Source: Pseudomonadota bacterium (GTDB taxonomy: Bacteria; Pseudomonadota; Alphaproteobacteria; Sphingomonadales; Sphingomonadaceae). Taken from it: DNA of 38,520 nt. This document shows positions 13,140 through 31,989 of this stretch, one piece after another. The number at the start of each line of letters is the position of its first letter. The first letter of the stretch is position 1. A program made the position numbers and the translations under genes. The stretch covers positions 1 to 38,520 of the forward strand of contig JAFEEY010000015.1 of NCBI GenBank assembly GCA_018240865.1, given 5' to 3'. The notes beneath the pieces are model-generated. The model made no database searches and was not told where the DNA came from. It saw only the letters and a program-made list of their open reading frames with translations.

Positions 13140-13487
13140 TCACCGCTTGGTGATCGATGTCAGCCTTCCGGTCTTGCCGTCCCAGTCGAAGGCGAAGTCG
13201 ACCTTGTCTCCGACCTTTAGCCCATCGAGCGATCCAGGCCTGCCCGAGAACGTCATCGTCATCGCAGGCCAACCGAGTTCGGTGACCGGTCCGTGCTGCA
13301 ACGTGACCTCGCCGGACGCTGCATCGAGCTTGGTGACGACCCCGCTGCCATGACCGGACTTGGTCTCGGCCGACATGTTCACCCCCGCCATCGACCCATT
13401 GTCGGGTCCGGTCGCCTGCGGCGCCGGCTTGCCGCATCCGGCGATCGCGAGCGGCAGGGCCGCCGCGAGCAACATCCTGTGAGTCAT
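13140..13487 (-). CDS. CusF-like copper/silver-binding lipoprotein
   Basis: A 115-residue periplasmic copper-binding protein with a lipoprotein signal (lipobox IAGC, Cys18), so it is probably membrane-anchored. The CusF fold follows: H65, W73, M76 and M78 in [18 protein letters not shown] reproduce the His-Trp-Met-Met Cu(I)/Ag(I) site of E. coli CusF. It should hand metal to the CusCBA pump. Its ATG overlaps the cusA stop by 4 nt (ATGA), and it is the last gene of the operon, whereas in E. coli cusF is second. Lipidation distinguishes it from soluble E. coli CusF. Confidence 0.9.
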
Positions 13488-16400
13488 TTGGCTTCTCCTT
13501 CGCTGGGACTGGAATGGTGGCCGGATCGCCGCCGCAGCAGCAGGTAAGCCGCGGGGATCACCAGCATCGACAGCAGAGGTGCGGTCAGCATGCCGCCGAT
13601 CATCGGCGCGGCGATGCGGCTCATAACCTCCGAGCCCGCGCCGGTGCCGAGGATGATAGGAAGCAGGCCGGCGAGGATGACCGCGACTGTCATCGCCTTC
13701 GGGCGGACGCGCAGCAGCGCGCCCTCGCGCACCGCCGCCTCGACCTCTGCCCCGTTTGGCGCCGGACCCCGTTCGGCCAGCGCGTGCTTTAGGTAGATCA
13801 GCATTACCACGCCGAACTCGGCCGATACGCCGGCGAGCGCGATGAACCCGACCCCGGTCGCGACCGACTGGTTGTAGCCGAGCAGGTAGAGGAGCCACAC
13901 GCCCCCGGTCAGCGCGAACGGCAGCGTGCCCATGACCAGCGCCGCCTCGTCGAGCCGCCGGAACGTCGCGTAGAGCAGCAGGAAGATGATCAGCAGTGTC
14001 GCCGGCACGACGATCTTCAGCCGCTCGACCGCGCGCTGGAGGAACTCGAACTGCCCGGTGTAGCTGACGCTGATCCCGGGCGGCAGCTTCACCTTGGCGC
14101 CGATGGCCTGCTGGAGGTTGCCGACGATCGTGGTCAGCGGGGCGCCACGACCATCGACGTAGATCCACGTGACGGGCCGGCCGTTCTCGGTGCGCAGCAT
14201 CGGCGGGCCGTCGCTGACCGAGATGTCCGCGACGGTGCCGAGCGTCACTTGCTGGAGCGATGGCGTCAGCACCGGCAGGTCGCGCAGGGCGTCGATGTTG
14301 TCCCGCATCTCGCGCGGATAGCGCACGCTGATCGGGTAGCGCGCCAGACCCTCGACAGTCTGGCCGACGGTCTCGCCGCCGATCGCGCTCGAGACGACCG
14401 ACTGGACGTCGGCCACGTTGAGCCCATAGCGCGCCGCCGCCGCGCGGTTGATCGTCACGTCGACGTAGCGGCCGCCGGTCAGCCGCTCGGCCAGCGCCGA
14501 ACTCACGCCGGGCACGGTCTTCGCCACCTGCTCGATCTTCCGCGCCGTAGTATCGATCTCGGCCAGGTTCGAGCCCGACACCTTGATGCCGATCGGGCTC
14601 TTGATGCCCGTCGACAGCATGTCGATGCGGTTGCGGATCGGCGAGATCCAGAAGTTGGCGAGGCCTGGAACCCTTACCGCGTGGTCCAGTTCGTCGATCA
14701 GCTTCGCCTGCGTCATGCCGGACCGCCACTGGTCCTTCGGCTTGAACCGGATCGTCGTCTCGAACATCTCGAGCGGCGCGGGATCGGTCGCGGTGTCCGC
14801 GCGCCCGGCCTTGCCGAACACGCTCTCGACCTCGGGGACCGTCTTGATCATGCGGTCGGTCAGCTGGAGCAGCTGTCCGGCCTTCGCGGTCGAGATGCCC
14901 GGCAGTGCCGACGGCATGTAGAGCAGGTCGCCCTCGTTCATCTGCGGGATGAACTCGCCGCCGAGCTGGCTGATCGGCCAGATGCTGGTGGCGAACACGA
15001 GCCCGGCGATGATCAGCGCCTGCTGCGGTCGCGCCAGCACCCAGTCGAGTGCGGGCCGGTAGACGCGGGTGAGCACGCGGTTGATCGGGTTCGCGCTTTC
15101 GGATGGAATGCGCCCCCGGATGAGGTAGCCCATCAGCACCGGGATCAGCGTGATGGACAGGATCGCCGCCCCGCCCATGGCGTAGGTCTTGGTGAACGCG
15201 AGCGGTGCGAACAGCCTCCCTTCCTGCCCCTGCAGCGAGAAGATCGGCACGAACGAGAAGGTGATGATCAGCAACGAGAGGAAAAGCGCTGGCCCGACCT
15301 CGACCGCCGCAGCCGTGATCACGCGCCATCGCTCCGGGCCTGCCAGCGTCCCGTCGGGGTGATCGCGCGTCCAATGTTCGAGGTGCTTGTGCGCGTTCTC
15401 GATCATCACCACCGCCGCGTCGACCATCGCACCGATCGCGATGGCGATGCCGCCTAGCGATAGGATGTTGGCGTTGAGGCCCTGGACGCGCATCGCGATG
15501 AACGCGGCCAGAATGCCGAGCGGCAGCGTCAGGATCGCGACTAGCGCCGAGCGCGCGTGCCAAAGGAACAGCGCACAGACCAAAGCGACGACGATGAACT
15601 CCTCGATCAGCTTGCCGGTAAGGTTGTCGACCGCGCGGTCGATCAGCCCCGAGCGGTCGTAGGTCGTCACGACCTCGACGCCCGGCGGCAGGCTCTTCTT
15701 CAACTCATCGAGCCTGGACTTGACGCCCTCGATCACCTCGCGCGCGTTCTTGCCCTGGCGCATCACGATCACGCCGCCGGCGACCTCGCCCTGGCCGTTC
15801 AGTTCGGCGACCCCTCGCCGCATGTCGGGTCCGACCTGGACCGTGGCGACGTCGCCGAGCGTCACCGGCGTGCCGCCGACGGTCTTCAGGGGGATCGCGC
15901 GGAAGTCGTCGAGCGAGGCGAGGTAGCCGGTCGAGCGGACGATGTATTCGGCCTCGGCCATTTCCAGCACCGAGCCGCCGCTCTCCTGGTTGCCGCGCTT
16001 GAGCGCGTCGATCACCGTCTCGTGGGTGATTCCGTATGAAGCGAGCTTCTGCGGATCGAGGACCACCTGATACTGTTTCACCATGCCGCCGATGTTGGCG
16101 ACCTCGGCGACGCCCGGCACCGTCTTCAGCTCGTAGCGCAGGAACCAGTCCTGGATGCTGCGCAGCTGGGCGAGATCGTGGTGGCCGGTCCTATCAACCA
16201 GCGCGTATTCGTAGATCCATCCCACCCCGGTCGCGTCGGGACCGAGTGACGCCTTCGCGCCGTCGGGCAACCGGCTCTGCACCTGGCTCAGATATTCGAG
16301 CACGCGGCTGCGTGCCCAGTAGAGATCGGTGCCCTCGTCGAACAGCACGTAGACGAAGCTGTCGCCGACGAACGAATAGCCGCGCACGACGCGGGCGCCG

Positions 16401-16630
16401 GGCACGGACAGCATCGTCGTCGCGATCGGGTAGGTGACCTGGTCCTCGACGATGCGCGGCGCCTGCCCCGGATACGTCGTGCGGATGATGACCTGCACGT
16501 CCGACAGGTCGGGTAGCGCGTCGACCGGCGTCGATCGGACGGCGCCTATGCCGATCGCGACGAGCGCGAGGGCGGCCAGCAGGACGGCGACGCGGAGCCG
16601 GACCGACGCCTCGATGATCCGCGCGATCAC
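13484..16630 (-). CDS. cusA: CusA-type heavy-metal RND efflux pump (Cu+/Ag+)
   Basis: A 1048-residue inner-membrane RND transporter, normal for the HME-RND family. The helix-4 signature [17 protein letters not shown] (residues 396-412) is the monovalent (Cu/Ag) type and clearly differs from the DFG..VDG form in the CzcA of this window. The N-terminal [15 protein letters not shown] is also typical. It should trimerise and use the proton gradient to send Cu(I)/Ag(I) through the CusC channel. The GTG start at 16630 overlaps the cusB stop by 4 nt (GTGA); longer readings run antisense-like through cusB and are rejected. Confidence 0.95.
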
Positions 16631-17841
16631 TTGGCGCCACCCGCGATCGGACGGGCCGCGATGCCGGTCAGACTGGCCTCGCTGTCGAGCAGGAACTGGC
16701 CCGAGGCGACCACCTTCTCGCCGGCGGCGAGGCCGGCGAGGATCTCGGTCTGGCCGCCTGCCTCGCGCCCGACCCGGACCTCGGCCGGCCGGAACCTGCC
16801 CTTGCCGTCGGCGAGCATCACCAGCGTGCGCCTCCCGGTCCGTATCACCGCTTCGCTCGGGACCAGCAGCGCCGACCTGGACGTATCGCCGAGATGGACC
16901 GTCGCGAACATACCGGGCCGCAGGCGCCCGTCGCGGTTGGCCAGTTCGATCCTCACCGTCAGCGTGCGGCTGTCGGCCTGCGCGGTCGGCAGCACCGCGA
17001 TGACGCGGCCGGTGAAGCGTTCGCCGGGAAACCCCGCGAGTTCCGCGGTCGCCGTCTGGCCGACCCGCACATCGGCTGCGCGCACTTCGGGCACGGCGGC
17101 GTTCAGCCAGACCGTGCCGAGCCCGTTGACCTGGGCTAGCGTCTGCCCGGCCGCGAGCGTCGCGCCGGCGCGCGCGTCGAGGGTGCCAATAACCCCGCTG
17201 ATCGGGCTGCGGATCGTGGTCATGCCGCGTCCGCTGGTCGCGCCGCCGGGTGCGCCGAGCAGCCGAAGGCGCTGCCGGGCGGCCGCGATCAACGCCGGAT
17301 CGCCGGTCTTCGCGACAGCGGCGTATTCGCCCTGCGCGCCGCCCCATTCGGGGACCAGTACGTCGGCGATCGGTGCGCCGGCGCGGATCACGTCGCCGGG
17401 CGCGCGGCCATATACGCGCTGGATGAATCCGGCAGCGCGCGCCTGGATGATGGCGACGTCGCGCTGGTTGAAGTCGATCGCGCCGGTGACATCGAGCGAA
17501 CCGGCGAGCGTGCCGTTGGTCGCCGTCGCCAGACGGATGCCGAGGCTCTGCATCGACGACGGATCGATCCTGACGCCCGGAACAGCGGACGGGCCGCCGC
17601 TGTCGTCGGCGTATTTCGGGATGGTCTTCATGCCCATCGACGACAGCGAGTCCGGGTTGTCGTAGTGCTCGGCCGGCACCATCGGATCATACCAGTAGAG
17701 CGGCTTGCGGGCGGCCGGTGCGCCTGCGACTGGCGACGAGCCCTTTGACTCCGCCAGATAATAGCCGCCCGCACCGGCCGCGAGCGCGACGGCGGCGAAG
17801 GCGGCGGCGAGCTGCGAACGCTGAAGCGGATTGAGCGTCAT
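16627..17841 (-). CDS. cusB: CusB-type periplasmic adaptor of the copper/silver efflux system
   Basis: A 404-residue membrane-fusion protein with an N-terminal membrane anchor (about residues 10-30). The CusB-specific metal-binding segment follows: [10 protein letters not shown] with M54, then M69 and M71 in SSMGM and PKYAD. This matches the three methionines of E. coli CusB that receive Cu(I) from CusF. The barrel-sandwich and hairpin regions follow ([29 protein letters not shown]). It links CusA to CusC. The ATG at 17841 overlaps the cusC stop by 4 nt. Confidence 0.93.
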
Positions 17842-19067
17842 CGGTCGGTGCTCCCGAACAGGAGGTTGAGCCGCACGCCATCGGCGGCGACGATGGCTTC
17901 CCGGTCGAGCGTGTCCAGCATCGCTTCAGCCAGCGAGGCGTGGGCGTCGACGAGGTCGACGAGGCTGGCCCGGCCGGCGGCGTAGCTCGCCACCTCCAGC
18001 GTTACCCGTTCCTGCGCGAGCGGCTGGAGCACATCGCGCGCGCGCATCCATTGGTCGTGGTGCATGACGTGGTCGGCGAGGCCGGCCTCGAGGTCGGCGG
18101 TCAGCGCGCGCAAGGCGGCGTCCGCGTCGGCGCGGGCGCTGCCGGCGTCGGCCGCGCGCGCCGCGATCAGCGGGTCCTGCCGGCGCTTCTTGAATAGCGG
18201 AAGCCCGATCGTCACGCCTGCCGACACATAGTCCCCGAAGCGCGGGTCACGTCGCTGATAGGATAGGTCGACGCCAAGGTCAGGGCGCCGGTCAGCCTGC
18301 GCGAGCCGCAGGTCGGCGTCCGCGCGGCCGGCCTGCGCCGTGAGCAGGGCGAGCGAGGGGTGCCGTTCGAGTCCCGCACGGAGCCTTACCGGATCGACGG
18401 TCAGGTCCGGAACCGCACCGGCGATCTCGGGGTCGGCCTCGCCGGTCCAGCGGGTCAGGTCCGCCCTGGCGCGCGCTACCGCCGACAGCAGCTCGTCGCG
18501 GCGGTCCTGCAGGCGGGCCAGCGCGGCGCGTCCCGCCAGCGTCTGTGCCGGACGTGCGTTGCCCGACGCCACCGCGCTGGGGGCCGTCCGGACGATGCGG
18601 CCGAGCCTGGCGAGCACGTCGTCGAGCGCGGCGAGCCGCCGCTCCGCATAGGCGAGGTTGATCCAGGCGATCGCGGTCTGCACCTCGACCGTGCGGATCT
18701 CGACGAGCGTCCCGGCGTCGGCGACCGCGATGTCGGCGTCGGCCCGCCCGCGCTGGGCGCGGCGCTTGGCGAGGTTGGGGATGTCCTGCGATATGCCGAT
18801 CTTCGCCCAGGTGAAATTATCGCGCGAGGGTTGGAACGCCAGCGGCCCCGATATCGGGAAGCTGTCGATCCCGAGCGCGAGCTTGGGATCGGGTAGCTGG
18901 CCGGCGGCGATGCGGGCCGAGCGCGTCGCGTCGGCGCTCAGCGCCTTGGCCTTCACCGAGGGAGCGCCTGCCTTCGCCTTGGCCAGCGCATCGTCGAACG
19001 TCAGCGGTCCGGCCAGCGCCGCCGATGGCAGCGCCGCACCGAGCAGCAATATGCATAGTGCCTTCAT
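17838..19067 (-). CDS. cusC: CusC-type outer-membrane efflux channel (OMF/TolC family)
   Basis: A 409-residue TolC-like protein with signal peptide ending SAALAG. It has two outer-membrane-factor repeats made of long Ala/Arg-rich helices (for example FDDALAKAKAGAPSVKAKAL near the N-terminus). The paired strands include KIGISQDIPN and VTIGLPLFKKRR. No lipobox is seen, unlike E. coli CusC. The ATG at 19067 has GGGAGA upstream. It is the first gene of the tightly overlapping cusC-B-A-F unit. Confidence 0.9.
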   Translation of the reverse strand: MKALCILLLGAALPSAALAGPLTFDDALAKAKAGAPSVKAKALSADATRSARIAAGQLPDPKLALGIDSFPISGPLAFQPSRDNFTWAKIGISQDIPNLAKRRAQRGRADADIAVADAGTLVEIRTVEVQTAIAWINLAYAERRLAALDDVLARLGRIVRTAPSAVASGNARPAQTLAGRAALARLQDRRDELLSAVARARADLTRWTGEADPEIAGAVPDLTVDPVRLRAGLERHPSLALLTAQAGRADADLRLAQADRRPDLGVDLSYQRRDPRFGDYVSAGVTIGLPLFKKRRQDPLIAARAADAGSARADADAALRALTADLEAGLADHVMHHDQWMRARDVLQPLAQERVTLEVASYAAGRASLVDLVDAHASLAEAMLDTLDREAIVAADGVRLNLLFGSTDR

Positions 19068-20044: not shown

Positions 20045-20731
20045 TTAACCCATCACCTCCTCAAGCAGCAGCAATCCCAGGAAGCCGACGAAGAACATCG
20101 CGCTGATGAGCGGGCTGTCGGGCTTGGCGTGCGCCTCTACCAGCAGTTCCTCGGTGACCAGGTAGAGTAGCGCGATCAGTCCGAAGCTGAGGAACCCGGC
20201 TATCACCGCGGGCGGGAAGCCGGCGACGGGCGTCGCCAGCAGCACGCCGACCGGCAGCAGCAGCCCGAGCCCTGCGGTGGTGGCCACGATCCTGACCTTG
20301 GACCGGACCGTGTCCCCCAGCTCCTCGGTTACGGTGACGCCGAGGAACAGCACCTCGAGCGTCAGCGCTACCGTCAGCAGGATGCCGGCCTTTGCTCCGG
20401 CGATGAACGCCAGCCCGAGCACCAGACCGTCGATCAGGATGTCGGTGCCGACCGCGCCGAGCATCCCGAGCGGGCCCTCGAAGCGGCCCTCGAGCGACTT
20501 CAGCGACAGCATCGCGACCACGCCCGCGGCACCGCCGATCAGCGTTGCGGCCGCCGACCCGCCATGGACGACTTGCGGCAGGATCTCGGCCGCCGCGGCG
20601 GCGAAGACGACGCCCGCAGCGAGATGCTGGATCGCACTGGACAGCTTCGGACCCGGCGGCCGCAGCACCGCGACGACCGCGCCCGCCAGGACGGCGAGCA
20701 GGGGGAACACCGTGTATGTCAGTGCCAGCAT
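20045..20731 (-). CDS. ZIP-family metal transporter
   Basis: A 228-residue polytopic membrane protein with about eight hydrophobic helices. ZIP-type polar residues sit in the core helices: HLAAGVVFAAAAAEILPQV early, LIDGLVLGLAFIAGAKAG in the centre, then VTEELGD and LVTEELL. ZIP proteins normally move Zn2+ or other divalent metals into the cytoplasm, which is odd next to export genes. The ATG at 20731 has GAGGGA upstream. It is separated from the CDF gene by 147 bp, so it may have its own promoter. Confidence 0.85.
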   Translation of the reverse strand: MLALTYTVFPLLAVLAGAVVAVLRPPGPKLSSAIQHLAAGVVFAAAAAEILPQVVHGGSAAATLIGGAAGVVAMLSLKSLEGRFEGPLGMLGAVGTDILIDGLVLGLAFIAGAKAGILLTVALTLEVLFLGVTVTEELGDTVRSKVRIVATTAGLGLLLPVGVLLATPVAGFPPAVIAGFLSFGLIALLYLVTEELLVEAHAKPDSPLISAMFFVGFLGLLLLEEVMG

Positions 20732-20878
20732 CGTGGATTCCCTCTTGGATCGATCGTGCGACTGCGGATGTGCGCCGGTCTTGGCCATCCGTCCACGGCG
20801 GGGCTGCCGGTTCCCGTCACGCTCCGTCCTTCCGTCCGGTCCGCTGCGATGGCGGTCCGCCCTCGCCAGCCGTTGCGA

Positions 20879-21868
20879 TCATACCACGTGGTCGGGTTCG
20901 AGCGGGCAGTCGGCGTCCGGATCGGTCTCGATCTGGATCGTCGCGTGGTCGATCTCGAACCGTTCCTTGAGCGCCGCCGCGAGCTGGGCGGTGTAGGCGT
21001 CGCCGGGATACCCTTCCGGGACCAGCAGGTGCACCGTCAGCGCGGTCTCGGTCGTGCTCAGCGGCCAGACATGAAGGTCGTGAACGCCCTTCACGCCGCG
21101 CTGCTTGCGCAGGAACGCGCCGATCCGCGCCGGATCGACGCCGGGAGGCGCCGCCTGCAGGCTCATGTTCACCGAATCCCGCAGCAGCCCCCAGGTGCCG
21201 ATCGCCACGACGGCGACGATGACGAGGCTGGTCACCGGGTCGATCCACGTCACGCCCGTCAGGACGATGACGAGGCCAGCCACCACGACGCCGGCCGACA
21301 CGCCGGCGTCCGCCGCCATGTGGAGGAACGCGCCCCGGATGTTGAGGTCGCCCTTGCGCCCGCTCATGAAAAGCAGCGCGGTGGCGCCGTTCACGACGAT
21401 GCCGATGGCGGCCACGATCATCACGGTCGTGCCGGCGACGGGGCTGGGTTCGGCGAACCGCCGGACCGCCTCGACCGCGATCACGCCGATCGCGACCAGC
21501 AGCAGCAGCGCGTTGAGCAGCGCGGCGAGGATCGACGAGCTGCGCAGGCCGTAGGTGTAGCGACCCTTCGGCGATCGCCTCGCGAGCGTCGCCGCCCCCC
21601 ATGCGATCAGCAGTCCGAGCACATCGCTTAGGTTATGGCCGGCGTCGGCGAGCAGCGCGACCGACCCGGCGATCAGCCCATACGTTGCCTCGACGACGAC
21701 GAATCCGACGTTGAGCGCCGTGCCGATCGCGAACGCCTTGCCGAAGCTCGCGGGCGCGTGGCTGTGTCCGTGCCCGCCATGGGCGTGGCCGTCGCCCCCG
21801 TGGTCGTGCCCAGCGTGGTCGTCGTGGTCGTGGTCCTGCACGCCCTTTTCCCCTTCTGCCGCGCTCAT
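20879..21868 (-). CDS. CDF-family cation efflux protein (CzcD-like)
   Basis: A 329-residue cation diffusion facilitator of typical CzcD length. A His/Asp-rich cytoplasmic N-terminus (HDHDDHAGHDHGGDGHAHGG) precedes six helices. The transport-site motifs are ADAGHNLSD (helix 2) and HMAADAG (helix 5), an HxxxD pair expected for Zn2+/Cd2+/Co2+. A C-terminal cytoplasmic domain with HDLHVWPLS is present. It should export divalent cations in exchange for protons. Its ATG overlaps the DUF190 stop by 4 nt, so the two proteins are made together. Confidence 0.93.
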   Translation of the reverse strand: MSAAEGEKGVQDHDHDDHAGHDHGGDGHAHGGHGHSHAPASFGKAFAIGTALNVGFVVVEATYGLIAGSVALLADAGHNLSDVLGLLIAWGAATLARRSPKGRYTYGLRSSSILAALLNALLLLVAIGVIAVEAVRRFAEPSPVAGTTVMIVAAIGIVVNGATALLFMSGRKGDLNIRGAFLHMAADAGVSAGVVVAGLVIVLTGVTWIDPVTSLVIVAVVAIGTWGLLRDSVNMSLQAAPPGVDPARIGAFLRKQRGVKGVHDLHVWPLSTTETALTVHLLVPEGYPGDAYTAQLAAALKERFEIDHATIQIETDPDADCPLEPDHVV

Positions 21869-22197
21869 CGTCCCGTCTCCGCCATGTTGTCGCCGCCCAG
21901 GACCTCGACCGCCTCGAGCGTGATAAGGCCGATGCCCGAGATGTCGGCCAGTCCGTCGACGAACGCGCGAAGCCGCGCATCGTCGTCGACGATCTCGATC
22001 ACGAGCGACTGGTCGTCCTCGAGCAGGTGCTTGCGGTGCTCGTGCGCCGAGTGGCCGAACCCGAACAGCGCGCGCAGCACGGTCGCGCCCGCCATCTTAG
22101 CGTCGCGGGCGCGCGCCGCGACGACCTCGAAGACCTTGCGGTCGCCATAGAAGGCGGCCTCGTCGGTGTAGATGCGCAGCAGCTTCGTCATCGTCAT
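21865..22197 (-). CDS. DUF190 (PII-like) protein coupled to a CDF exporter
   Basis: A 110-residue protein of the DUF190 family, small PII/CutA-like folds. Visible features are KLLRIYTDEAAFYGDRKV, then GATVLRALFGFG, and the acidic end of the fold LVIEIVDDDARLRAFVD. Members are thought to form oligomers that bind small ligands; none is proven here. The ATG at 22197 (or 22191, which has GGAG 6 nt upstream) fits the family N-terminus. A longer start at 22230 would overlap the upstream gene by 4 nt. The downstream ATGA overlap with the CDF gene suggests it regulates that transporter. Confidence 0.85.
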   Translation of the reverse strand: MTMTKLLRIYTDEAAFYGDRKVFEVVAARARDAKMAGATVLRALFGFGHSAHEHRKHLLEDDQSLVIEIVDDDARLRAFVDGLADISGIGLITLEAVEVLGGDNMAETGR

Positions 22198-22226
22198 CTC
22201 CGTATCCCTTCCCTTTCCCGCCGCGC

Positions 22227-22436
22227 TCATCGCGAGCCGTCCACCGCCTTGAACAATAGCCAGACGGCCACCGTCGCGATCGCGAAGACCGTCCAGGACC
22301 AGGCGACGCGGTGATCCAGCACGGTGACCTCGGTCGAGCCGAGCATCTGGGCGCCGGTCCCGCCGTCCTCGTGCACGAGGTTGGCGATCACGAGCGACGT
22401 CACAGCGCCCGCGGCGAGCGACTTGATCACCGCCAT
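22227..22436 (-). CDS. Small two-helix membrane protein between czcA and DUF190
   Basis: A 69-residue protein with helix 1 at about residues 5-20 (SLAAGAVTSLVIANLV), a short polar loop HEDGGTGAQ, and helix 2 at about residues 46-62 (WTVFAIATVAVWLLFKA). The ATG at 22436 has a strong AGAGGAGGAA site. It lies 46 nt after czcA on the same strand. Its size and place recall small proteins that bind RND pumps (AcrZ in E. coli), but there is no sequence relation I can show. Function unknown. Confidence 0.65.
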   Translation of the reverse strand: MAVIKSLAAGAVTSLVIANLVHEDGGTGAQMLGSTEVTVLDHRVAWSWTVFAIATVAVWLLFKAVDGSR

Positions 22437-22482: not shown

Positions 22483-25400
22483 TCATCGTCCCTGTCCCTC
22501 GGTCACGGGCGATGCCGGCCGGCGGCGCTCGATCGCCCCGAGCACGACCTTGGAGATGGCCGGCAGCACGAGCAGCGTCAGCACCGTGGCGGCGACGAGG
22601 CCACCGATGACGACCATCGCGAGCGGCTTCTGCACCTCGGCGCCGGTGCCGTGCGCGAGCGCCATCGGCACGAACCCGATCGCCGGCACGAACCCGGTCA
22701 TGATGACCGGCCGCACGCGCTCGAACGTCCCGTCGATGATCGCGCGGCTTAGCTCGACGCCGTCCTCGAGCCGCTCCCTGATGGCGCTCATCACCACCAG
22801 CCCGTTGAGCACCGCGACGCCGGCCAGGCAGATGAACCCCACCGCCGCCGACACCGAGAAGGCGATGCCGGTCATCAGCAGCGTGAACACGCCGCCCGCT
22901 AGGCCGAGCGGCACCGCCGCGAACACCGCCAGCGCGCGCCCGAACCCGCCGAGCGCGAGGTAGAGCAGCGCGAAGATCGCCGCGAAGCAGATGGGCACGA
23001 CGATCGAGAGCCGGTCGGACGCCGCCTGCAGGTTCTGGAACTGCCCACCCCATTCGAGGTAGGAGCCGGTCGGCAGGCCGACCTTCTCGACCTTCGGCAT
23101 AGCCTCGGCGACGAACGACCCGACGTCGCGTCCGCGCACGTTCGCCTGGATGACGATGCGCCGCTTGCCGTTCTCGCGGCTGATCTGGTTGAGGCCCTCG
23201 CTGAAGCGGAACTGCGCGACCTGCCACAGCGGGACCGAGCCGCGCCGCTCGGTCTGCTCAGGCGGCAGCAGGACGGGAAGGTTCCGCAGCGCGTCCAGGT
23301 TGTCGCGCGACGCCATCGGCACGCGCACCTGGACCGCGAAGCGGCGGTCCCCCTCGAACACCAGCCCGGCCTCGCGCCCGCCCATCGCGGCGGCGACCGT
23401 GTCGGCCACCTCCTCGACCGTCAGGCCGTAGCGCGCGATCGCCGCCCGGTCGAAGCGGACGTCGAGCGTCGGCGACCCGCTGGTCTGCTCCGCCTTCACG
23501 TCCGCCGCGCCCGGTATGGCCTGGAGCGCCTTCACGATGTTCGCCGCCGACGCGCTCATCTTGTCGAGGTCGTCGCCGTATAGCTTGATGGCGACGTCGC
23601 CGCGCACCCCGGCGATGAGTTCGTTGAAGCGCAGCTGGATCGGCTGGCTGACCTCGAACGCGTTGCCGATCTGACCGCCGGTCTTCTCCTCTATCCGCTT
23701 CAGCACGTCGGCCTTGGTCTCGACCCCGGCCGGCCACTGGTCCTGGGGCTTGAGGATCACGAACCCGTCCGAGATGTTAGAGGGCATCGGGTCGGTCGCC
23801 ACCTCAGCCGTGCCGGTCTTGGAGAACATCAGCGCCACCTCGGGCAGGCTGGTGACCGCCCGCTCGACGCCGCGCTGCATCTTCAGCGACTGCTCCATCG
23901 AGACCGAGGGCACGCGGCTGGATGCGAGGGCCACGTTCTTCTCGTCGAGCTGTGGGATGAACTCCTGTCCCAGGAAGCCGAACGCCAGGACGGCCGCCGC
24001 GAAGAAGCCGAACCCGGCGGCGATGAATGGCCAGGGCCGGGCCACCGCCTGCTCGAGGATCGGCGCATACCGCTCCTTGATGCGGGCGACGATCCAAACC
24101 TCCTTTTCCGCCACCTTGCCGCGGATGAGCAGCGCCACCATCGCGGGGACGAAGGTCAGGGCGAGGATGAACGCCGCCGCCAGTGCCAGCATGATGGTGA
24201 TCGCCATCGGCGAGAAGGTCTTCCCTTCCACCCCGGTGAACATCAGCAACGGAGCGAAGGCGAGGAAGATGATCGCCTGGCCGAAGACGGTCGGCTTGAT
24301 CATCTCCTGGCTCGCGCGCATCGTCTCCTCCAGCCGCTCGCGCAGGGCGAGCAGCCGTCCCTCGCGGTGCTGCCGTTCCGCCAGCCGGCGCAGGCAGTTC
24401 TCGATGATGATGACCGCGCCGTCGACGATCAGGCCGAAGTCGAGCGCCCCGAGGCTCATCAGGTTGCCGGGCACCCCGAAGGCGTTCATCCCCATCGCCA
24501 TCATCAGGAACGAGAAGGGGATGATCAGCACGGCGATGATCGACGCGCGGACGTTGCCGAGCAGCAGGAAGAGCGCCGCGGCGACCAGGATCGCCCCTTC
24601 GGTGAGGTTCTTCTGGACGGTGCCCACGGTGGCGTTGACCAGCGCCGAGCGGTCGAGCGTGGTGGTGACCTTGATGCCGGGCGGCAGCGACTTCCGCACC
24701 TCCTCGATCTTGTCGCCGACGCTGCGGGCGACGATGCGGCTGTTGCCGCCGATGAGCATCAGCGCGGTGCCGACCACGACCTCGTGCCCGTTCATGCTGG
24801 CGGCGCCGGTTCGCAGGTCGCCGCCGATCCGCACGGTCGCGACGCTCTTGACCGCGACCGGCACGCCGCCGCGCGTCGCGATGATCGCGTCGGCGATCTC
24901 GTCGATGTCCTTGATGCGGGCGTCGCCGCGCACGAGGAACGCCTCGCCGCCGCGGTTGAAGAAGTTGGCGCCGACCGACAGGTTGGCGGCCTCGAGCGCC
25001 TTCGCCAGCTCGGAATACGAGACGCCGTAGTTGCCGAGCTTCACCGGGTCCGGCTCGACGACGTAGGTCTTCTCGTATCCGCCGATCGAGTCGATGCCGG
25101 CGACGCCTTGGACGGTGCGCAGCTGGGGACGGATGATCCAGTCCTGCACGGTGCGCAGGTAGGCGGAGCGCGACACCTCGTCGGTCAGACGGTCGCCCTC
25201 TGGGGTGAGGAAGCTGCCGTCGGATTGCCAGCCGGCTCTGCCGTCGATGACCTTGGCGCCCCTGCCACCCGGGTTGGTGAAGTCGACCGCATACATGAAG
25301 ACCTCGCCGAGGCCCGTGGTGACCGGCCCGATCTGCGGCTGGACGCCGTCCGGCAGGCTGTCGCGGGCCTGCGCGATGCGTTCGCTGACCTGCTGGCGCG

Positions 25401-25716
25401 CGAAGTAGAGGTCGGTCTTGTCGGTGAAGATGGCACTGACCTGGCTGAACCCGTTGCGCGACAGCGATCGGGTGGTCTGCAGGCCGGGGATGCCGGCCAA
25501 TGCGGTCTCTATCGGAAAGGTGACGCGCTTCTCGATCTCGATCGGCGACAGCCCACGCTCCACCGTGTTGATCTGCACCTGGTTGTTGGTGATGTCGGGG
25601 ACGGCGTCGATCGGCAGCCGGGTGAGCTGCCAGGCGCCGACGCCGGCGACGACGAGGAAGAAGGCCACGACGGCCCAGCGCGCCCGGACGGACAGCGCCA
25701 TGAGGTTGGCGATCAT
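22483..25716 (-). CDS. czcA: CzcA-type heavy-metal RND efflux pump (divalent cations)
   Basis: A 1077-residue HME-RND inner-membrane pump. The helix-4 signature DFGLIVDGAVIIIEN (residues 426-440) is the form seen in Zn/Co/Cd/Ni pumps. The N-terminus LPIDAVPDITNNQVQINT is classical CzcA. The trimer uses proton influx to expel divalent metal via CzcB and CzcC. The ATG at 25716 lies 3 nt after czcB with GAGGAGGAA upstream. Only about 40 percent similar by eye to the CusA in the same window, so the two are old paralogues, not a recent duplication. Confidence 0.95.
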   Translation of the reverse strand: MIANLMALSVRARWAVVAFFLVVAGVGAWQLTRLPIDAVPDITNNQVQINTVERGLSPIEIEKRVTFPIETALAGIPGLQTTRSLSRNGFSQVSAIFTDKTDLYFARQQVSERIAQARDSLPDGVQPQIGPVTTGLGEVFMYAVDFTNPGGRGAKVIDGRAGWQSDGSFLTPEGDRLTDEVSRSAYLRTVQDWIIRPQLRTVQGVAGIDSIGGYEKTYVVEPDPVKLGNYGVSYSELAKALEAANLSVGANFFNRGGEAFLVRGDARIKDIDEIADAIIATRGGVPVAVKSVATVRIGGDLRTGAASMNGHEVVVGTALMLIGGNSRIVARSVGDKIEEVRKSLPPGIKVTTTLDRSALVNATVGTVQKNLTEGAILVAAALFLLLGNVRASIIAVLIIPFSFLMMAMGMNAFGVPGNLMSLGALDFGLIVDGAVIIIENCLRRLAERQHREGRLLALRERLEETMRASQEMIKPTVFGQAIIFLAFAPLLMFTGVEGKTFSPMAITIMLALAAAFILALTFVPAMVALLIRGKVAEKEVWIVARIKERYAPILEQAVARPWPFIAAGFGFFAAAVLAFGFLGQEFIPQLDEKNVALASSRVPSVSMEQSLKMQRGVERAVTSLPEVALMFSKTGTAEVATDPMPSNISDGFVILKPQDQWPAGVETKADVLKRIEEKTGGQIGNAFEVSQPIQLRFNELIAGVRGDVAIKLYGDDLDKMSASAANIVKALQAIPGAADVKAEQTSGSPTLDVRFDRAAIARYGLTVEEVADTVAAAMGGREAGLVFEGDRRFAVQVRVPMASRDNLDALRNLPVLLPPEQTERRGSVPLWQVAQFRFSEGLNQISRENGKRRIVIQANVRGRDVGSFVAEAMPKVEKVGLPTGSYLEWGGQFQNLQAASDRLSIVVPICFAAIFALLYLALGGFGRALAVFAAVPLGLAGGVFTLLMTGIAFSVSAAVGFICLAGVAVLNGLVVMSAIRERLEDGVELSRAIIDGTFERVRPVIMTGFVPAIGFVPMALAHGTGAEVQKPLAMVVIGGLVAATVLTLLVLPAISKVVLGAIERRRPASPVTEGQGR

Positions 25717-25719
25717 GGC

Positions 25720-26880
25720 CTATTCCTCCTCGCCGGCGGACTTGCCGAGCTCGGCCTTGAGCAGGAAGGCGTTGGTCGTCGCGACCACCTGTCCTGGCTG
25801 CAGGCCCTTCACGATCTCGATGCGGCCGGCGCTGCGCTGACCGGTGGTGACCGGCCGGGCGCGGAACCCCTGCGGGGTGCGCACGAACACGATGTCCCGG
25901 CCGCCGAGCGACTGGACCGATTCCTCGGCGACCACGATCGCCGTCGACCCGCTCCCGCGGCTCGGCAGGAGGCGGACGCGCACGGCGAGGCCCGGCGGAA
26001 GCCCGGCGGAAGCCACGTCGATGACGGCGGTGGCGGCGCGCGTCTCGGTGTTGAGCGTCGGCGTGACCGCACGCACGCGGCCTTCGACCGTCCGGCCGTC
26101 GGGGAGCTCGATCACCGCGCGGTCGCCGGCGGCGAGGCGGCCCGCGTCGAGCGATCCGATCGCCGCCTCGATCTGCACCTCGCGCGGGTCGGCCACGCGG
26201 AACAGCTCCGTCTCGGGCTGGACGAAGGCGCCCAGCTTGGCGGTGATCGCGGTGACGCGCCCCGAGATCGGGCTGGCCACGATTACGCCGCGGCCATCGG
26301 CCATCACGTTCGCGGCGCCCGCCGTGGACCGCGCCCGCTGGGCTTCCGCCGCGGCCGTCGCGGCCTCGGCCTGCGCCTTCTCGTAATCCGCCCGCGACGA
26401 GACCTTCTGCTCGTAGAGGTAACGCTCGCGTGCCAGTGCCTTCTGCGCCAGCGTCGAGCGCGCGGCGGCGACCTTGATGTCCGACGAGAACTGCGCGGCG
26501 TCGCGGCTTTCCACGATCGCGAGCGCCTCGCCGGCCCGCACCGGATCGCCCAGGCGCTTGAGCAGCCGGACCACCGCGCCACCGGCGCGTGCCGTGACGA
26601 CGGCCTCGCCGGTCGGCGACGCCGACACGGCCGCCTGGGCGACGATCTCGGCGGACAGGCCGCCGGCGCCGACGGTCTCGGTCGCGATGCCAGCATCCTT
26701 GATCGCGGGGTTGGTCATGGTGACGGTGTCCGACGCCGCCTTCCCGGCCTCGGCAGGTGCATCCGCCGCTGGCGTGGGCGCGGCGGGTGCGGTCAGCCGG
26801 GCGGTCAGGAACCCGCCTGCGGACGCGACGAGCGCGACGGCGGCCGCGCCGCCGAGCAGGCGCTTGTTGGAATCGGTCAT
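25720..26880 (-). CDS. czcB: CzcB-type periplasmic adaptor
   Basis: A 386-residue membrane-fusion protein with an N-terminal anchor (about residues 8-28) and an Ala/Pro-rich linker. The barrel-sandwich halves include GGAVVRLLKRLGDPVRAGEAL and VIVASPISGRVTAITAKLGA; quoted parts flank a helical hairpin (KVAAARSTLAQKALARERYL). It joins CzcA to CzcC in the periplasm. The His-rich N-terminal site of Cupriavidus CzcB is absent. The ATG overlaps the czcC stop by 4 nt and follows GGAGAA. Confidence 0.9.
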   Translation of the reverse strand: MTDSNKRLLGGAAAVALVASAGGFLTARLTAPAAPTPAADAPAEAGKAASDTVTMTNPAIKDAGIATETVGAGGLSAEIVAQAAVSASPTGEAVVTARAGGAVVRLLKRLGDPVRAGEALAIVESRDAAQFSSDIKVAAARSTLAQKALARERYLYEQKVSSRADYEKAQAEAATAAAEAQRARSTAGAANVMADGRGVIVASPISGRVTAITAKLGAFVQPETELFRVADPREVQIEAAIGSLDAGRLAAGDRAVIELPDGRTVEGRVRAVTPTLNTETRAATAVIDVASAGLPPGLAVRVRLLPSRGSGSTAIVVAEESVQSLGGRDIVFVRTPQGFRARPVTTGQRSAGRIEIVKGLQPGQVVATTNAFLLKAELGKSAGEEE

Positions 26881-28148
26881 CGGTATTCTCCGGATGGGGT
26901 GGCCGACGGCGCGGCGCTCGTCAGGCGGCGCAGGCGCGCGGTGGCGGTATGGAAGGCGATGAGGGCGTCTGTCGCCGCCGCGCGGGTCTCGGACAGGGTG
27001 CGTTCGGCGTCGAGCAGCTCGATCTGGTCGAGCTTTCCCTGGCCGTAGCCGATGCGCGCGATGCGTGCCGCCTCCTGGGCGGCCGCGAGCGCCGGGCCGT
27101 TCGCCGCCCTCGCCGCGGTCGCGGCGTTGGCGACGTCCGCCATGGCGCTGGCGATCGCCCGGTCGGCATCAAGCCGGGCGAGCCTGAGCTGCGCCGCGAA
27201 CTGGTCGCGTTCGGCCGTGGCCTGGCCGATGGCCGCCCGGCCGTTGTTGAACAGCGGAATCGGGATCGACACGCCGACGACCGCGGCGGTGTCGCGCGAC
27301 GACTGCAGCCGCCGGGCACCCGCGCTGAGCGTGATGTCGGGGATGCGGTTCGCGCGGGCGAGGCGGACCTGGGCTTCGGCCGTCGCCAGATCGGCGGCAG
27401 CGACGGCGAGTGCCAGCGTGCCGTCGGAGCTCGGCGCGATCGTCGGTCCGAACCCGGCGACGCGGTCGAACCAGGCGCTGTCGAGCGGCCCCGTGACCGG
27501 CCGGCCGATGAGGCGCGACAGGTTCTCGCGCGCGACGTCCAGCGAGCGCTGGGCGCGCTCGACCGCCACGTTCGCGTTGATCGAGATGACGTCGGCGCGC
27601 TGCTCGTCGATCGGCGAGGCCGCGCCGACCATCACCCGGTCCCGCGCGACGCGCAGGCCTTCCTTGGCGATCGCCGCCTGCTGCCGCGCGACCAGCAGTC
27701 GTCGTTCGGCGCCGACCGCCTCGACATAGGTCTCGGTGACCAGCAGCTCTAGGTCGGCGAGCGCGACGACCGCGCCGAGCTTGGCGCGGCCGATGCGGGT
27801 GTCGGCGACGGCCACGCGGGCCGATCTCTTGCCGCCGGTCTCGATCGGCAGCGAGAAGCCGACGGTCGTCTCGGAGCCTGACAGGCCGCGATAGGGTCCG
27901 GTGCCCACGACATTTTCGGCCTGACCCTCGAACGACGGGTTCGGCCTGAGGCCGGCGACCGTTCGGCCGGCCGTGGACGCACGAATGCTGGCTTCCGCCG
28001 CCTCCATGCCGGGTGAGTGCGCGCGTGCCGACGCCAGCGCGTCGTCAAGCGTGAGTGGCGCCTCGGTCGATGCGACCGGGGCGGTCTGCGCCACGGCGGT
28101 GCCGGCGCAGACGGTCGCGGCGAGCAGCGCCGCGAGTGTTCGGGACAT
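26877..28148 (-). CDS. czcC: CzcC-type outer-membrane efflux channel
   Basis: A 423-residue OMF/TolC-family protein with signal peptide MSRTLAALLAATVCAGTAVAQ. Early helices follow (LTLDDALASARAHSPGMEAA), then the first strand pair around NVVGTGPYRGL and TTVGFSLPIETGGKR. The second, VVGVSIPIPLFNNGRA, is a typical OMF closing motif. It is the exit duct for the CzcA pump. The ATG at 28148 has AGGAG upstream; the gene starts 63 nt after the CzcI-like gene. Confidence 0.92.
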   Translation of the reverse strand: MSRTLAALLAATVCAGTAVAQTAPVASTEAPLTLDDALASARAHSPGMEAAEASIRASTAGRTVAGLRPNPSFEGQAENVVGTGPYRGLSGSETTVGFSLPIETGGKRSARVAVADTRIGRAKLGAVVALADLELLVTETYVEAVGAERRLLVARQQAAIAKEGLRVARDRVMVGAASPIDEQRADVISINANVAVERAQRSLDVARENLSRLIGRPVTGPLDSAWFDRVAGFGPTIAPSSDGTLALAVAAADLATAEAQVRLARANRIPDITLSAGARRLQSSRDTAAVVGVSIPIPLFNNGRAAIGQATAERDQFAAQLRLARLDADRAIASAMADVANAATAARAANGPALAAAQEAARIARIGYGQGKLDQIELLDAERTLSETRAAATDALIAFHTATARLRRLTSAAPSATPSGEYR

Positions 28149-28211: not shown

Positions 28212-28559
28212 TCAGGCGATCGGTGGTCTCAGGTCGCGGAACAGGTCGGCGGCGGCAGGCGGTGCGCGGACACCCTGGCCCGATGGGATCGTGACTGATT
28301 GCAGGTCTAGGGACGCGACCTCGGCAGCCGGGACGGCGAGCTCGTGGTTGTGGCCGACGCTGTGGTGGTGCGGCGTCGCCTTGTCGGAATCGCCCGGCAC
28401 CTCATCGGAATCACCCGCCGAATGACCGGGCGCGTCCGCATCGACGATCGTCGTGCTGCAACCATCGATCTCGGTCGCGTAGGCGGCCGACGACTGGAAG
28501 CCCGAGTACAGGGTCAGGACCAGCATCAGGCTTGCGATCGAGGCGAGCAGCTTGCGCAT
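28212..28559 (-). CDS. CzcI-like small His-rich periplasmic protein
   Basis: A 115-residue exported protein with signal peptide (MRKLLASIASLMLVLTLYSG...AYA). It has one mature cysteine and a histidine cluster, HHHSVGHNH, suited to Zn2+/Cd2+ binding. It sits directly upstream of czcC, the position of czcI in Cupriavidus, whose product is thought to modulate czc. Similarity to CzcI is by size, signal, His cluster and context only. ATG at 28559 chosen because the longer reading hides the signal peptide. Confidence 0.6.
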   Translation of the reverse strand: MRKLLASIASLMLVLTLYSGFQSSAAYATEIDGCSTTIVDADAPGHSAGDSDEVPGDSDKATPHHHSVGHNHELAVPAAEVASLDLQSVTIPSGQGVRAPPAAADLFRDLRPPIA

Positions 28560-28674: not shown

Positions 28675-29340
28675 TTACTCGGCGACGACGTTGCTGAGCG
28701 TGGCCGGGTCGGCCGACGCTGACTTAACCTCTTCTGAGGTAAGTTCCCGTCTCGCCTGCAGGACGATCTGCAGCCCGCCCGACAAGCCGAGCGTCGCCAT
28801 GATCGCGGCGACGGCGAGGTCGGGCCACTGCGTGCCGGTGCCCAGCACGCCGGCGGCCGCGGCGACCACCGCGAGGTTGCCGATCGCGTCGTTGCGCGAG
28901 CAGATCCAGACCGAGCGCATGTTCGCGTCGCCCGTGCGGTAGCGGAACAGCATCAGCGCGACGGCTCCGTTGGCGACGAGCGCCATGATGCCGACGACGC
29001 CCATCGTCTCGCCCTGCGGCACCCGGCTCCCGAACGCCGCGACTAGCGTCGTGACGAGCACGTAGAGACCGAACGCGAGGATCGTGCCACCCTTGAGCAG
29101 CGCCGCGCGCGACCGCCAGCGAAGGGCGAGGCCCGCGACGCCGAGGCTGATCGCGTAGTTCGCGGTGTCGCCGAGGAAGTCGAGCGCGTCCGCCTGCAGC
29201 GATCGCGATCCCGACGCGATGCCGGCGAATATCTCGCCGGCGAACATCGCCAGGTTGATCGCGAGCGCGATCCACAGCACGCGCCGCCACCGGGGATCCG
29301 GCTTGGCGGGCGCGTCGGTCTGGCAGCTGCTACAGACCAT
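28675..29340 (-). CDS. Short CDF-type cation transporter lacking the C-terminal domain
   Basis: A 221-residue membrane protein of the CDF superfamily. It begins MVCSSCQTD with a CxxC that could touch metal. The transport motifs are in helix 2 (QADALDFLGDTANY) and helix 5 (SRNDAIGN), where the usual histidine of HxxxD is replaced by Asp/Asn-type residues. The protein stops after helix 6, so the cytoplasmic metal-sensing domain is missing. This may be a natural short subtype. A MerR-type promoter lies 32-62 bp upstream, making this the first gene of the czc block. Confidence 0.82.
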   Translation of the reverse strand: MVCSSCQTDAPAKPDPRWRRVLWIALAINLAMFAGEIFAGIASGSRSLQADALDFLGDTANYAISLGVAGLALRWRSRAALLKGGTILAFGLYVLVTTLVAAFGSRVPQGETMGVVGIMALVANGAVALMLFRYRTGDANMRSVWICSRNDAIGNLAVVAAAAGVLGTGTQWPDLAVAAIMATLGLSGGLQIVLQARRELTSEEVKSASADPATLSNVVAE

Positions 29341-29432: not shown

Positions 29433-31409
29433 TCATCGGGCCGCGGCCATGCCTCGACGGCGGTTGAGGATGAACCCCGCCGCCACCGCGACCAGCATCG
29501 CCAACTGGGCGGCGACCGACTGCCAGGTCGGGAAGATTCCGAGCATCGTGATCCGCAATCCGCCCGCGAGCGGCGCGATGTCGATGATCCCGGCCTCCTG
29601 CAGTGCGGCCACGCCCTTGCCCGCCAGCACGACCGTCAGCGCCGCCATGAGCCAGGCGCTGTATGTGAAGAACTTGGCGATCGGCAGGTCGCGGCTGTAG
29701 CGCAGCATGGCCCAGGCGATCAGGCCGAGCAGGGCGACCGCCGAGCCGGCCCCGGCGAGCAGCATGCCGCCGTTGCCCTGCGTCCACAGCGCTGCGTAGA
29801 ATAGGATCGTCTCGAACACCTCGCGGTAGACGACGACGAAGGCCAGGCCGAACAGGAACCACGAGGACTGGCGCGACAGCGCGCGCGACATCCTCTCGCG
29901 GATGTAGCGCTGCCACTGGTCGGCCTGGGCCTTGCCGTGCATCCAGATGCCGACCGACAGCAGGACGACGGCGGCGAGCAGCGATCCGAAGCCCTCGGTA
30001 AGCTCCCGGCTCGCGCCGCTGATCCCGATGGCGTAGGTCGCGACCGCCCAGGTGGCGGCGCCGGCGAGCAATGCGCCGATCCAGCCGCCGTGGACGTATG
30101 GCAATGCGTCGGTGCGATCCCCCTTGCGCAGGAACGCGATCATCGCGACGACGATCAGGAGCGCCTCGAGGCCCTCGCGCAGCAGGATCGTGAACGCGCC
30201 GAGGAATGTCGACGCGCTGCTTGCGGCGTCCGGCGACAGCGCGGCGTCGGCGTCGTCGAACAGCCCGTTCAGGACCTGCACCCGCGTTGCGAGCTCGTCG
30301 GCCGGCCGGCCCTGCTGGATCGCTGCGCGGAACTCGCCCATCGCGCCCTCGATGTGGCCCATCAGCGTGGCGTCGCGGGCGGTCAGCGCCGGCTCGACCG
30401 GCTCGAACCCGTCGAGATAGGCGGACAGGGCGAGTTCCCGAGCCGTGCGCCGGTCGCCGGCGCGGTATGCCGCCACACTCTGCGCCAGCTTCGCGCGCGC
30501 CACGGCCAGCGACCCGGGCGCAGGCTGCATCACCGCCTCGGGGTGGCGCCTGAGATAGGCGATGACGGCGTCCGCCTTGGCCTCCCCCAGCTGGCCGGCG
30601 AGCGCCTGCGGCGTCAGGCCCGCCAGCGTGGCGAGGTCGGGAATGCGCTGTCGGATCGAGGCGTCGCTCTTCCAGATCTTCTCGCCCTTGGCCGCCATCG
30701 CATCGGTGAACGCGAAGCGCCCGGCGTAGAAGGCGAGCGCCCACCGGTCGTCGGACGGCAGCGATCCGAAGCTCTGCATCGCGGTGCCGTCGATGCCCTG
30801 GAGGATCACCTGATAGAGCGCGAACGGGCTGCGCTGACGCGCCCGGCCGATGTCCGTGAAGGCGATGGGTGGCGTGGCGAGCTTCGCGGCGCCGGCACCG
30901 CGCCCGTCGCCGTTCATGCCGTGGCAGCTGGCGCAGTTCTGCGCGAACAGGGTGGCGCCGCGCGACAGGTCGGGCGCTCGCGCCGGCGCGAGCGGGATGG
31001 GATAGGCCTTGAGCAGGTCGGCCGCCAGGCCATGCGCTAGCCGGGCGACGTCCTCGGGCTGGCCCTTAGCCGCGATCAGGGACCTGAGGCGTGCCGCGCC
31101 CGCGACGAGTCCGGCCTTCGCCGGCGATGGCGGCAACGCGGTCAGCCGCTCCGAGATGGAGGCGCCGAACTCTGTCATCTCGGCGTATTCGGACGCGCTC
31201 TTCACCTTGCTGTCGGCGACGGCGCCCGCATAGTCGACCGCCACATAGTCGAGCAGGCGCCAGGCCGTCGGCACGTCGGCGCCCTGGGCGTGGGCGGCGC
31301 CGCCGCCGAGCAGGCCGACGGATAGGACCAGCATCGCGATCAGGCGGAGCGACATGCGCCAAGCGGTGGTCGGCAGGATGCGGATTCGAGGGCGGTCAGG
31401 CGATGGCAT
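29433..31409 (-). CDS. Cytochrome c/FTR1-family permease (PbrT-like)
   Basis: A 658-residue fusion. After a signal peptide (about residues 19-42) comes a periplasmic region with a c-type heme site CASCH (C159, C162, H163). The C-terminal half is an FTR1-type permease with REGLE (411-415) and REVFE (529-533), the metal-binding REXXE pairs, on about seven helices. FTR1 imports Fe3+ after oxidation; relatives in lead operons (PbrT) take up Pb2+. The attached cytochrome suggests coupled electron transfer. The ATG at 31409 lies 6 nt after the -10 of the MerR-type promoter, so translation may be leaderless; an internal ATG at 31355 is the alternative start. Confidence 0.88.
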   Translation of the reverse strand: MPSPDRPRIRILPTTAWRMSLRLIAMLVLSVGLLGGGAAHAQGADVPTAWRLLDYVAVDYAGAVADSKVKSASEYAEMTEFGASISERLTALPPSPAKAGLVAGAARLRSLIAAKGQPEDVARLAHGLAADLLKAYPIPLAPARAPDLSRGATLFAQNCASCHGMNGDGRGAGAAKLATPPIAFTDIGRARQRSPFALYQVILQGIDGTAMQSFGSLPSDDRWALAFYAGRFAFTDAMAAKGEKIWKSDASIRQRIPDLATLAGLTPQALAGQLGEAKADAVIAYLRRHPEAVMQPAPGSLAVARAKLAQSVAAYRAGDRRTARELALSAYLDGFEPVEPALTARDATLMGHIEGAMGEFRAAIQQGRPADELATRVQVLNGLFDDADAALSPDAASSASTFLGAFTILLREGLEALLIVVAMIAFLRKGDRTDALPYVHGGWIGALLAGAATWAVATYAIGISGASRELTEGFGSLLAAVVLLSVGIWMHGKAQADQWQRYIRERMSRALSRQSSWFLFGLAFVVVYREVFETILFYAALWTQGNGGMLLAGAGSAVALLGLIAWAMLRYSRDLPIAKFFTYSAWLMAALTVVLAGKGVAALQEAGIIDIAPLAGGLRITMLGIFPTWQSVAAQLAMLVAVAAGFILNRRRGMAAAR

Positions 31410-31497: not shown

Positions 31498-31911
31498 CTA
31501 CAGCGTCCCCTGCGGCCCGAGCGACTCGATGATGCGGCATTCCGACACCGTCCCGTGACCACACTGCACGATCAGGCTGTCGAGCTCCGCACGCAGCATG
31601 GTGAGGTCGGCGAGCTTGCGGTCGATGTCGGCGAGATGCTCGCGCGCGATGAGGTCGACGGCGGAACACGACCTGTCCTTCTGGTCGGCGAGCCCGAGCA
31701 GCGCCTGGACCTGCTCCAGCGAGAAGCCGAGCGAGCGGGCGCGGCGGATGAAGCTGAGCCGGGCGAGATGGTCGGACGAATAGACGCGGTAGTTGGCGGC
31801 CGTGCGCCCGGGCGCGGCCAGAAGGCCGATCGACTCGTAGTAGCGGATCGTCTCGACCTTGGTTCCGGTCGCTGCGGCGAGCTTGCCGATGCTCAGTGAT
31901 GCAGAGGCCAT
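31498..31911 (-). CDS. MerR-family metal-responsive activator (ZntR/CadR/PbrR-like)
   Basis: A 137-residue regulator with the MerR helix-turn-helix (SIGKLAAATGTKVETIRYYESIGLL region, residues 7-31) and the dimer helix. It has Cys82 plus a C-terminal C-G-H...C group (C117, H119, C125). That pattern matches the Zn/Cd/Pb-sensing branch (ZntR C79, C114, H119, C124) and not CueR. It should hold and twist promoters with 19-bp spacers; two such promoters are nearby. It is transcribed in tandem with, not divergent from, the FTR1 gene. Exact metal is unresolved. Confidence 0.9.
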   Translation of the reverse strand: MASASLSIGKLAAATGTKVETIRYYESIGLLAAPGRTAANYRVYSSDHLARLSFIRRARSLGFSLEQVQALLGLADQKDRSCSAVDLIAREHLADIDRKLADLTMLRAELDSLIVQCGHGTVSECRIIESLGPQGTL

Positions 31912-31989
31912 TTCAGTCCGATCGGTTGGGGTGTCGGATCACGGGATTATTGGCGGTCGGAAGTGGCCGCGTTAGTGGCCGGGGTCCTC

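Follow-up and report, generated by a model that had tools for sequence, protein, structure and literature searches.

A PII-like DUF190 protein paired with one clade of CzcA metal efflux pumps: a candidate regulator with a histidine-bearing loop

HME-RND pumps rank with the most powerful metal-resistance machines of bacteria, and little has been described of how they are regulated once made. In Caulobacter crescentus, the czrCBA operon is induced by zinc and cadmium (PMC4176598, PMC3637150) and activated by Zur at high zinc, and the gene CC2725/CCNA_02810, situated between czrA and zntA, encodes a DUF190 protein (PMC4176598) that was listed as putatively ATP-binding and as carrying a domain of unknown function (PMC3637150). 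A PII protein of another family, PII-NG (PF00543), is found beside czcABC, for instance in Geobacter (GSU2134), and has been put forward as a possible metal/metabolite sensor (PMC7726332, citing Sant'Anna 2009). Among PII-like proteins that act on transporters, the SbtB-AMP trimer inserts its T-loops in the cytoplasmic cavity of trimeric SbtA, in a manner resembling GlnK-AmtB (PMC10117731); CusA, the model HME-RND pump, is also a trimer (PMC8092243). The listing of a DUF190 protein in the Caulobacter czrCBA operon and the occurrence of another PII-type protein beside czcABC are thus already known, and they qualify the statement of the preliminary description of the present locus that DUF190 lacks a described role; the statement itself held, since no function for DUF190 was found in the literature searched. 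Subscription literature was outside this search, so that the novelty of a DUF190 function is not certain. Most literature matches for DUF190 concerned DUF1908 or were unrelated, and a search for the metal operon IhpABC by name gave unrelated papers only.

The window, i.e. the whole stretch of 38,520 nucleotides that was analysed, carries on its minus strand a czc operon formed by czcC (26877-28148; outer-membrane factor, PF02321 OEP), czcB (25720-26880; periplasmic adaptor, HlyD_D23 and TIGR01730) and czcA (22483-25716), whose product was assigned to the CusA/CzcA HME-RND pumps by family search (TIGR00914, 1465 bits for a cut-off of 701.45). On the same strand follow a small ORF encoding 69 aa (22227-22436, ATG at 22436), the DUF190 gene (21865-22197, or 21865-22230 in a longer reading from ATG 22230) and a gene for a CDF exporter with a His-rich N-terminus (20879-21868). 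This order had been given in the preliminary description and was found at these positions, the families being confirmed for all but the small ORF. The CDF exporter matched PF01545 (Cation_efflux, 125.7 bits) and PF16916 (ZT_dimer, 51.2 bits), both over cut-offs, as well as TIGR01297 (242.5 bits); it scored 196.2 bits against the ZitB zinc CDF model NF002923, below the equivalog cut-off of 408, and its HxxxD motifs alone (HNLSD and HMAAD), typical of zinc CDFs, suggest zinc as substrate. As in Caulobacter, the DUF190 gene follows directly on an HME-RND gene and is itself followed by that of a metal exporter, which is a P-type ATPase (zntA) there and a CDF here. As with PII-NG, a PII-type protein is encoded in a CzcABC operon, but the two belong to different PII families.

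Downstream of the CDF gene lies a ZIP-like/GufA-type membrane protein gene (20045-20788, minus strand; PF02535 at E=0.015, below the curated cut-off), homologues of which recur downstream in many loci. Immediately upstream of czcC, a small hypothetical protein gene (28215-28559, minus strand) has a counterpart with 40% identity at the equivalent place on plasmid pUPO218, and, also upstream of czcC, a short CDF-like cation transporter gene (28678-29340, minus strand; PF01545, 56.2 bits) occupies an equivalent position in many loci. Further upstream on this strand are a cytochrome c/FTR1-type iron permease gene (29436-31409), found at the equivalent place on sphingomonad plasmids (L038, L039), and a MerR-family regulator gene adjoining a further CDF exporter gene (31501-33333), the MerR protein being a candidate for metal-dependent control of the island. 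Another metal RND cluster (13484-19041, minus strand), which has no DUF190 gene, encodes a CusA-type pump that shares about 35% identity with the CzcA described above, a CusB-type adaptor and a CzcC-like outer-membrane protein. Known RNA control of the czc operon (riboswitch or other) was sought in the window, and a tRNA alone was found.

The ATGA overlap previously reported between DUF190 and the CDF gene is real, the stop TGA (21867-21865) overlapping the start ATG (21868-21866). In L065, a near-identical locus of a related genome, the codon matching ATG 22230 is not Met; the DUF190 start is therefore probably ATG 22197 or 22191 (MTMTKLLRIYTDE, GGAG just upstream) rather than ATG 22230, and with this later start the small ORF and DUF190 would probably not overlap. 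A second ATGA overlap, between these two genes, was rejected on the same ground. The protein is a member of the DUF190/UPF0166 family (PF02641, 81.7 bits for a cut-off of 23.4, model positions 1-97 of 97); PF02641 was the only family matched at E values up to 0.1, without any match to the canonical PII/PII-NG family PF00543. Its solved relatives by sequence are 1o51 (TM0021, E=1.4e-24) and 2dcl (PH1503, E=7.7e-21), both DUF190 structures, 31-32% identical over the model.

A single-chain AlphaFold2 model (AF2; 26 sequences, pLDDT 79.8) has a PII-like (ferredoxin-like) core and a disordered T-loop with pLDDT below 50 (GFGHSAHEHRKHLLEDDQ, 22009-22062, minus strand), and was matched to 1o51 (Z 13.9), 2dcl (13.4), SbtB (10.4), CPII (10.0) and GlnK1 (9.4). 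The model thus assigns the protein to the PII-like fold group, in agreement with the preliminary description, and binding of adenine nucleotide would be expected from the fold of the family. With SbtB-SbtA and GlnK-AmtB the protein shares this fold (Z 9 to 10), an operon with a transporter and a flexible T-loop; those are however uptake systems, in which contact with the partner has been shown, where for DUF190 and CzcA we infer it.

The 80 closest DUF190 relatives among 84,980 genomes were encoded behind czcA, most of them directly. As this set was picked via DUF190, an independent test took CzcA as its starting point and covered 397 genomes of the order. All 24 CzcA homologues with at least 72% identity (the window's own excluded, two being partial matches) had DUF190 directly downstream, and about ten of the more distant homologues had it, the others lacking it. 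Of 38 further DUF190 sites in these genomes, at least 35 adjoined czcA and one, the remaining site among the 36 retrieved, was crcB-linked. On a CzcA tree of 81 rows, presence of DUF190 required two changes, versus 26 in shuffles; a single gain together with a single loss would agree with this, on a tree whose root is not fixed. CzcA, more than the CDF, is thus the constant genomic partner of DUF190. Alignment of DUF190-linked and unlinked CzcA gave 17 separating columns, two of which (463 and 465) are in a presumed cytoplasmic loop; this line was rejected, the columns being too few and resting on one event. Most of the residues are not clearly on the cytoplasmic face, which counts against the reading proposed below. 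In a different CzcA clade without DUF190 (L183-L187, L193, L209-L211), the slot is often occupied by a SpoIIAA-like (PF11964) gene, 23 bp behind czcA and followed by a short CDF gene, which is another possible regulator. A DUF3240 gene, of another family with PII-like fold, lies directly behind an HME-RND pump gene in L316; this was the one case in a 23-genome sample, too few to generalise.

The T-loop carries a HxHxxH cluster (codons 22042-22044, 22036-22038 and 22027-22029, minus strand) that the T-loops of TM0021 and PH1503 do not have. In a comparison of 135 distinct DUF190 sequences, the column of the last His of the cluster (His57, numbered from MTMTKLL) held His in 82/91 czcA-linked sequences and Lys in 16/16 crcB-linked ones, and at least two His of the cluster were present in 86 of 92 czcA-linked sequences versus 2 of 16. 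The crcB-linked proteins are of the same family and stand at the same place behind an exporter gene, but in a fluoride rather than a metal context, which is confirmed by fluoride riboswitches in 4 of 10 of their loci. In a DUF190 tree built without the T-loop, the czcA-linked sequences formed one clade (support 100/99) on a long branch, with the crcB-linked ones outside. The czcA-linked proteins are nested among crcB-linked ones, and a single recruitment from CrcB-linked ancestors is proposed. The His change falls at the base of one clade, and the association of His with czcA therefore counts as about one event. In the only member of the czcA clade not beside czcA, that of L284, two of the three cluster His are gone (GRRRYV), which may be read as a single supporting loss. 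This gene (4989-5297 of that locus), with its degenerate T-loop histidines, adjoins cadR, a P-type ATPase gene and a sodium:proton exchanger gene.

Our leading proposal, which we hold tentatively and at somewhat less than even odds, is that a PII-like regulator, recruited once from CrcB-linked ancestors, docks on trimeric CzcA and senses adenine nucleotide and perhaps metal. CzcA would be the most likely target because of the exclusive pairing and of the precedents of trimeric PII-like proteins acting on trimeric transporters. A cytosolic DUF190 homotrimer would bind adenine nucleotide in its inter-subunit clefts, like other PII-like proteins, and present its flexible T-loops to the cytoplasmic face of CzcA, by analogy with GlnK on AmtB and SbtB on SbtA. 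By binding Zn, Cd or Co, the histidines of the HxHxxH cluster could report cytosolic metal, upon which the pump would be released or stimulated, while the CDF or P-type ATPase produced from the same message would supply CzcA with periplasmic metal; the czcA-linked DUF190 would have been inherited with CzcA since its recruitment. The more specific version, in which the trimer acts from the cytosolic side to plug or activate CzcA and the loop histidines directly read the exported metal, is rather unlikely as it stands; such reading was not found described for PII-like transporter regulators in the literature searched. Other CzcA clades work without DUF190, which counts against the proposal, as does the largely single event behind the association of His with czcA. 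Fluc, the CrcB-type fluoride exporter, is a dimer; with a partner that is not trimeric, three-fold matching cannot be a general rule for DUF190. The idea of a ligand-sensing regulator of metal export, put forward in the preliminary description, thus remains the leading one owing to the PII-like fold and to the conservation with the pump, with the amendment that the protein has a closer link with CzcA than with the CDF. As a dedicated switch turning the CzcA pump on and off, the czcA-linked DUF190 is a good candidate; because the DUF190 loop differs by partner, having His beside CzcA and Lys beside CrcB, the idea can be tested directly, and the CzcA-linked clade offers a handle on a widespread family.

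The best surviving alternative, to which we give about one chance in five, is that DUF190 gates the adjacent exporter, which works from cytoplasm to periplasm (a CDF here, a P-type ATPase elsewhere), rather than CzcA. Two observations favour it: a CDF or P-type ATPase gene was found within 6 kb downstream of DUF190 in 41 of 45 loci of a thinned set, and the overlap of start and stop codons is kept, amounting to 4 bases in 10 of the 18 distinct loci where a CDF gene follows (1 base in 2, 14 bases in 1). Translational coupling of DUF190 and CDF is therefore common. The exporter family is however not fixed, because the gene next after DUF190 varies among the 45 loci (SRPBCC in 16, CDF in 10, ATPase in 7, others besides), with czcA constant upstream; moreover, a single loop would hardly suit exporters of two unrelated kinds, and CDF exporters are dimers.

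A cytosolic metal buffer or chaperone, i.e. a trimer whose nine loop histidines would hand Zn or Cd to the exporters with no gating, seems less probable again. The restriction of the HxHxxH cluster to czcA-linked copies and the binding of divalent copper by the PII-like homologue CutA1 (PMC7726332) speak in its favour, but a general buffer needs no strict pairing with one CzcA branch, and the remainder of the PII-like core is conserved as well. Slightly further down we place a role in signalling to transcription or metabolism in metal stress, with the operon link serving co-expression only: transcription factors and enzymes are also among the targets of PII proteins (PMC1779786), and in Caulobacter Zur governs the expression of CC2725 together with czrCBA (PMC4176598), yet co-expression alone predicts neither the exclusive pairing with a CzcA clade nor the change in the loop. 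It is improbable that DUF190 is simply carried along, as a near-neutral gene, on a mobile metal-resistance island, for although many copies are on conjugative plasmids and the islands shuffle other genes, DUF190 is kept in 24/24 relatives while its neighbours turn over, and its core and loop are strongly conserved.

The small ORF between czcA and DUF190 is coding, since its third-position GC (0.93) is like that of the neighbouring genes and a copy with 100% identity is present in the same slot of L065. Its product had no match in Pfam and NCBIfam, and is described as a putative two-helix membrane protein from its sequence and a low-confidence single-sequence model only. The preliminary description suggested a pump-binding small protein, coupled with DUF190 and the CDF as an accessory to CzcA, but conservation of the three genes together was not supported: among roughly 120 czcA-DUF190 loci examined, the protein was found in this slot in three lineages only (L065, 100% identity; L105/L244, 61%; L109, 44%), it is absent from L066/L067 despite a 94% identical CzcA, and with the small protein rare and the downstream exporter variable, CzcA alone is constant. 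In loci without it the czcA-DUF190 gap is usually below 100 bp. A profile of the three lineages retrieved weaker relatives (about 30% identical) elsewhere in sphingomonad genomes, with a common WSW..F motif and a glycine-rich middle, several of which adjoin housekeeping genes. Its rarity, and the unlinked relatives lying close to housekeeping genes, led us to reject the small protein as a conserved CzcA subunit or accessory; the best reading is an optional insertion, recruited now and then from small two-helix proteins that form a scattered sphingomonad family. Members of this uncharacterised family (L025-L037, L058-L063) are two-helix proteins of about 66 aa with a WSW(P)xF motif, several being encoded near ribosomal-protein or other housekeeping genes.
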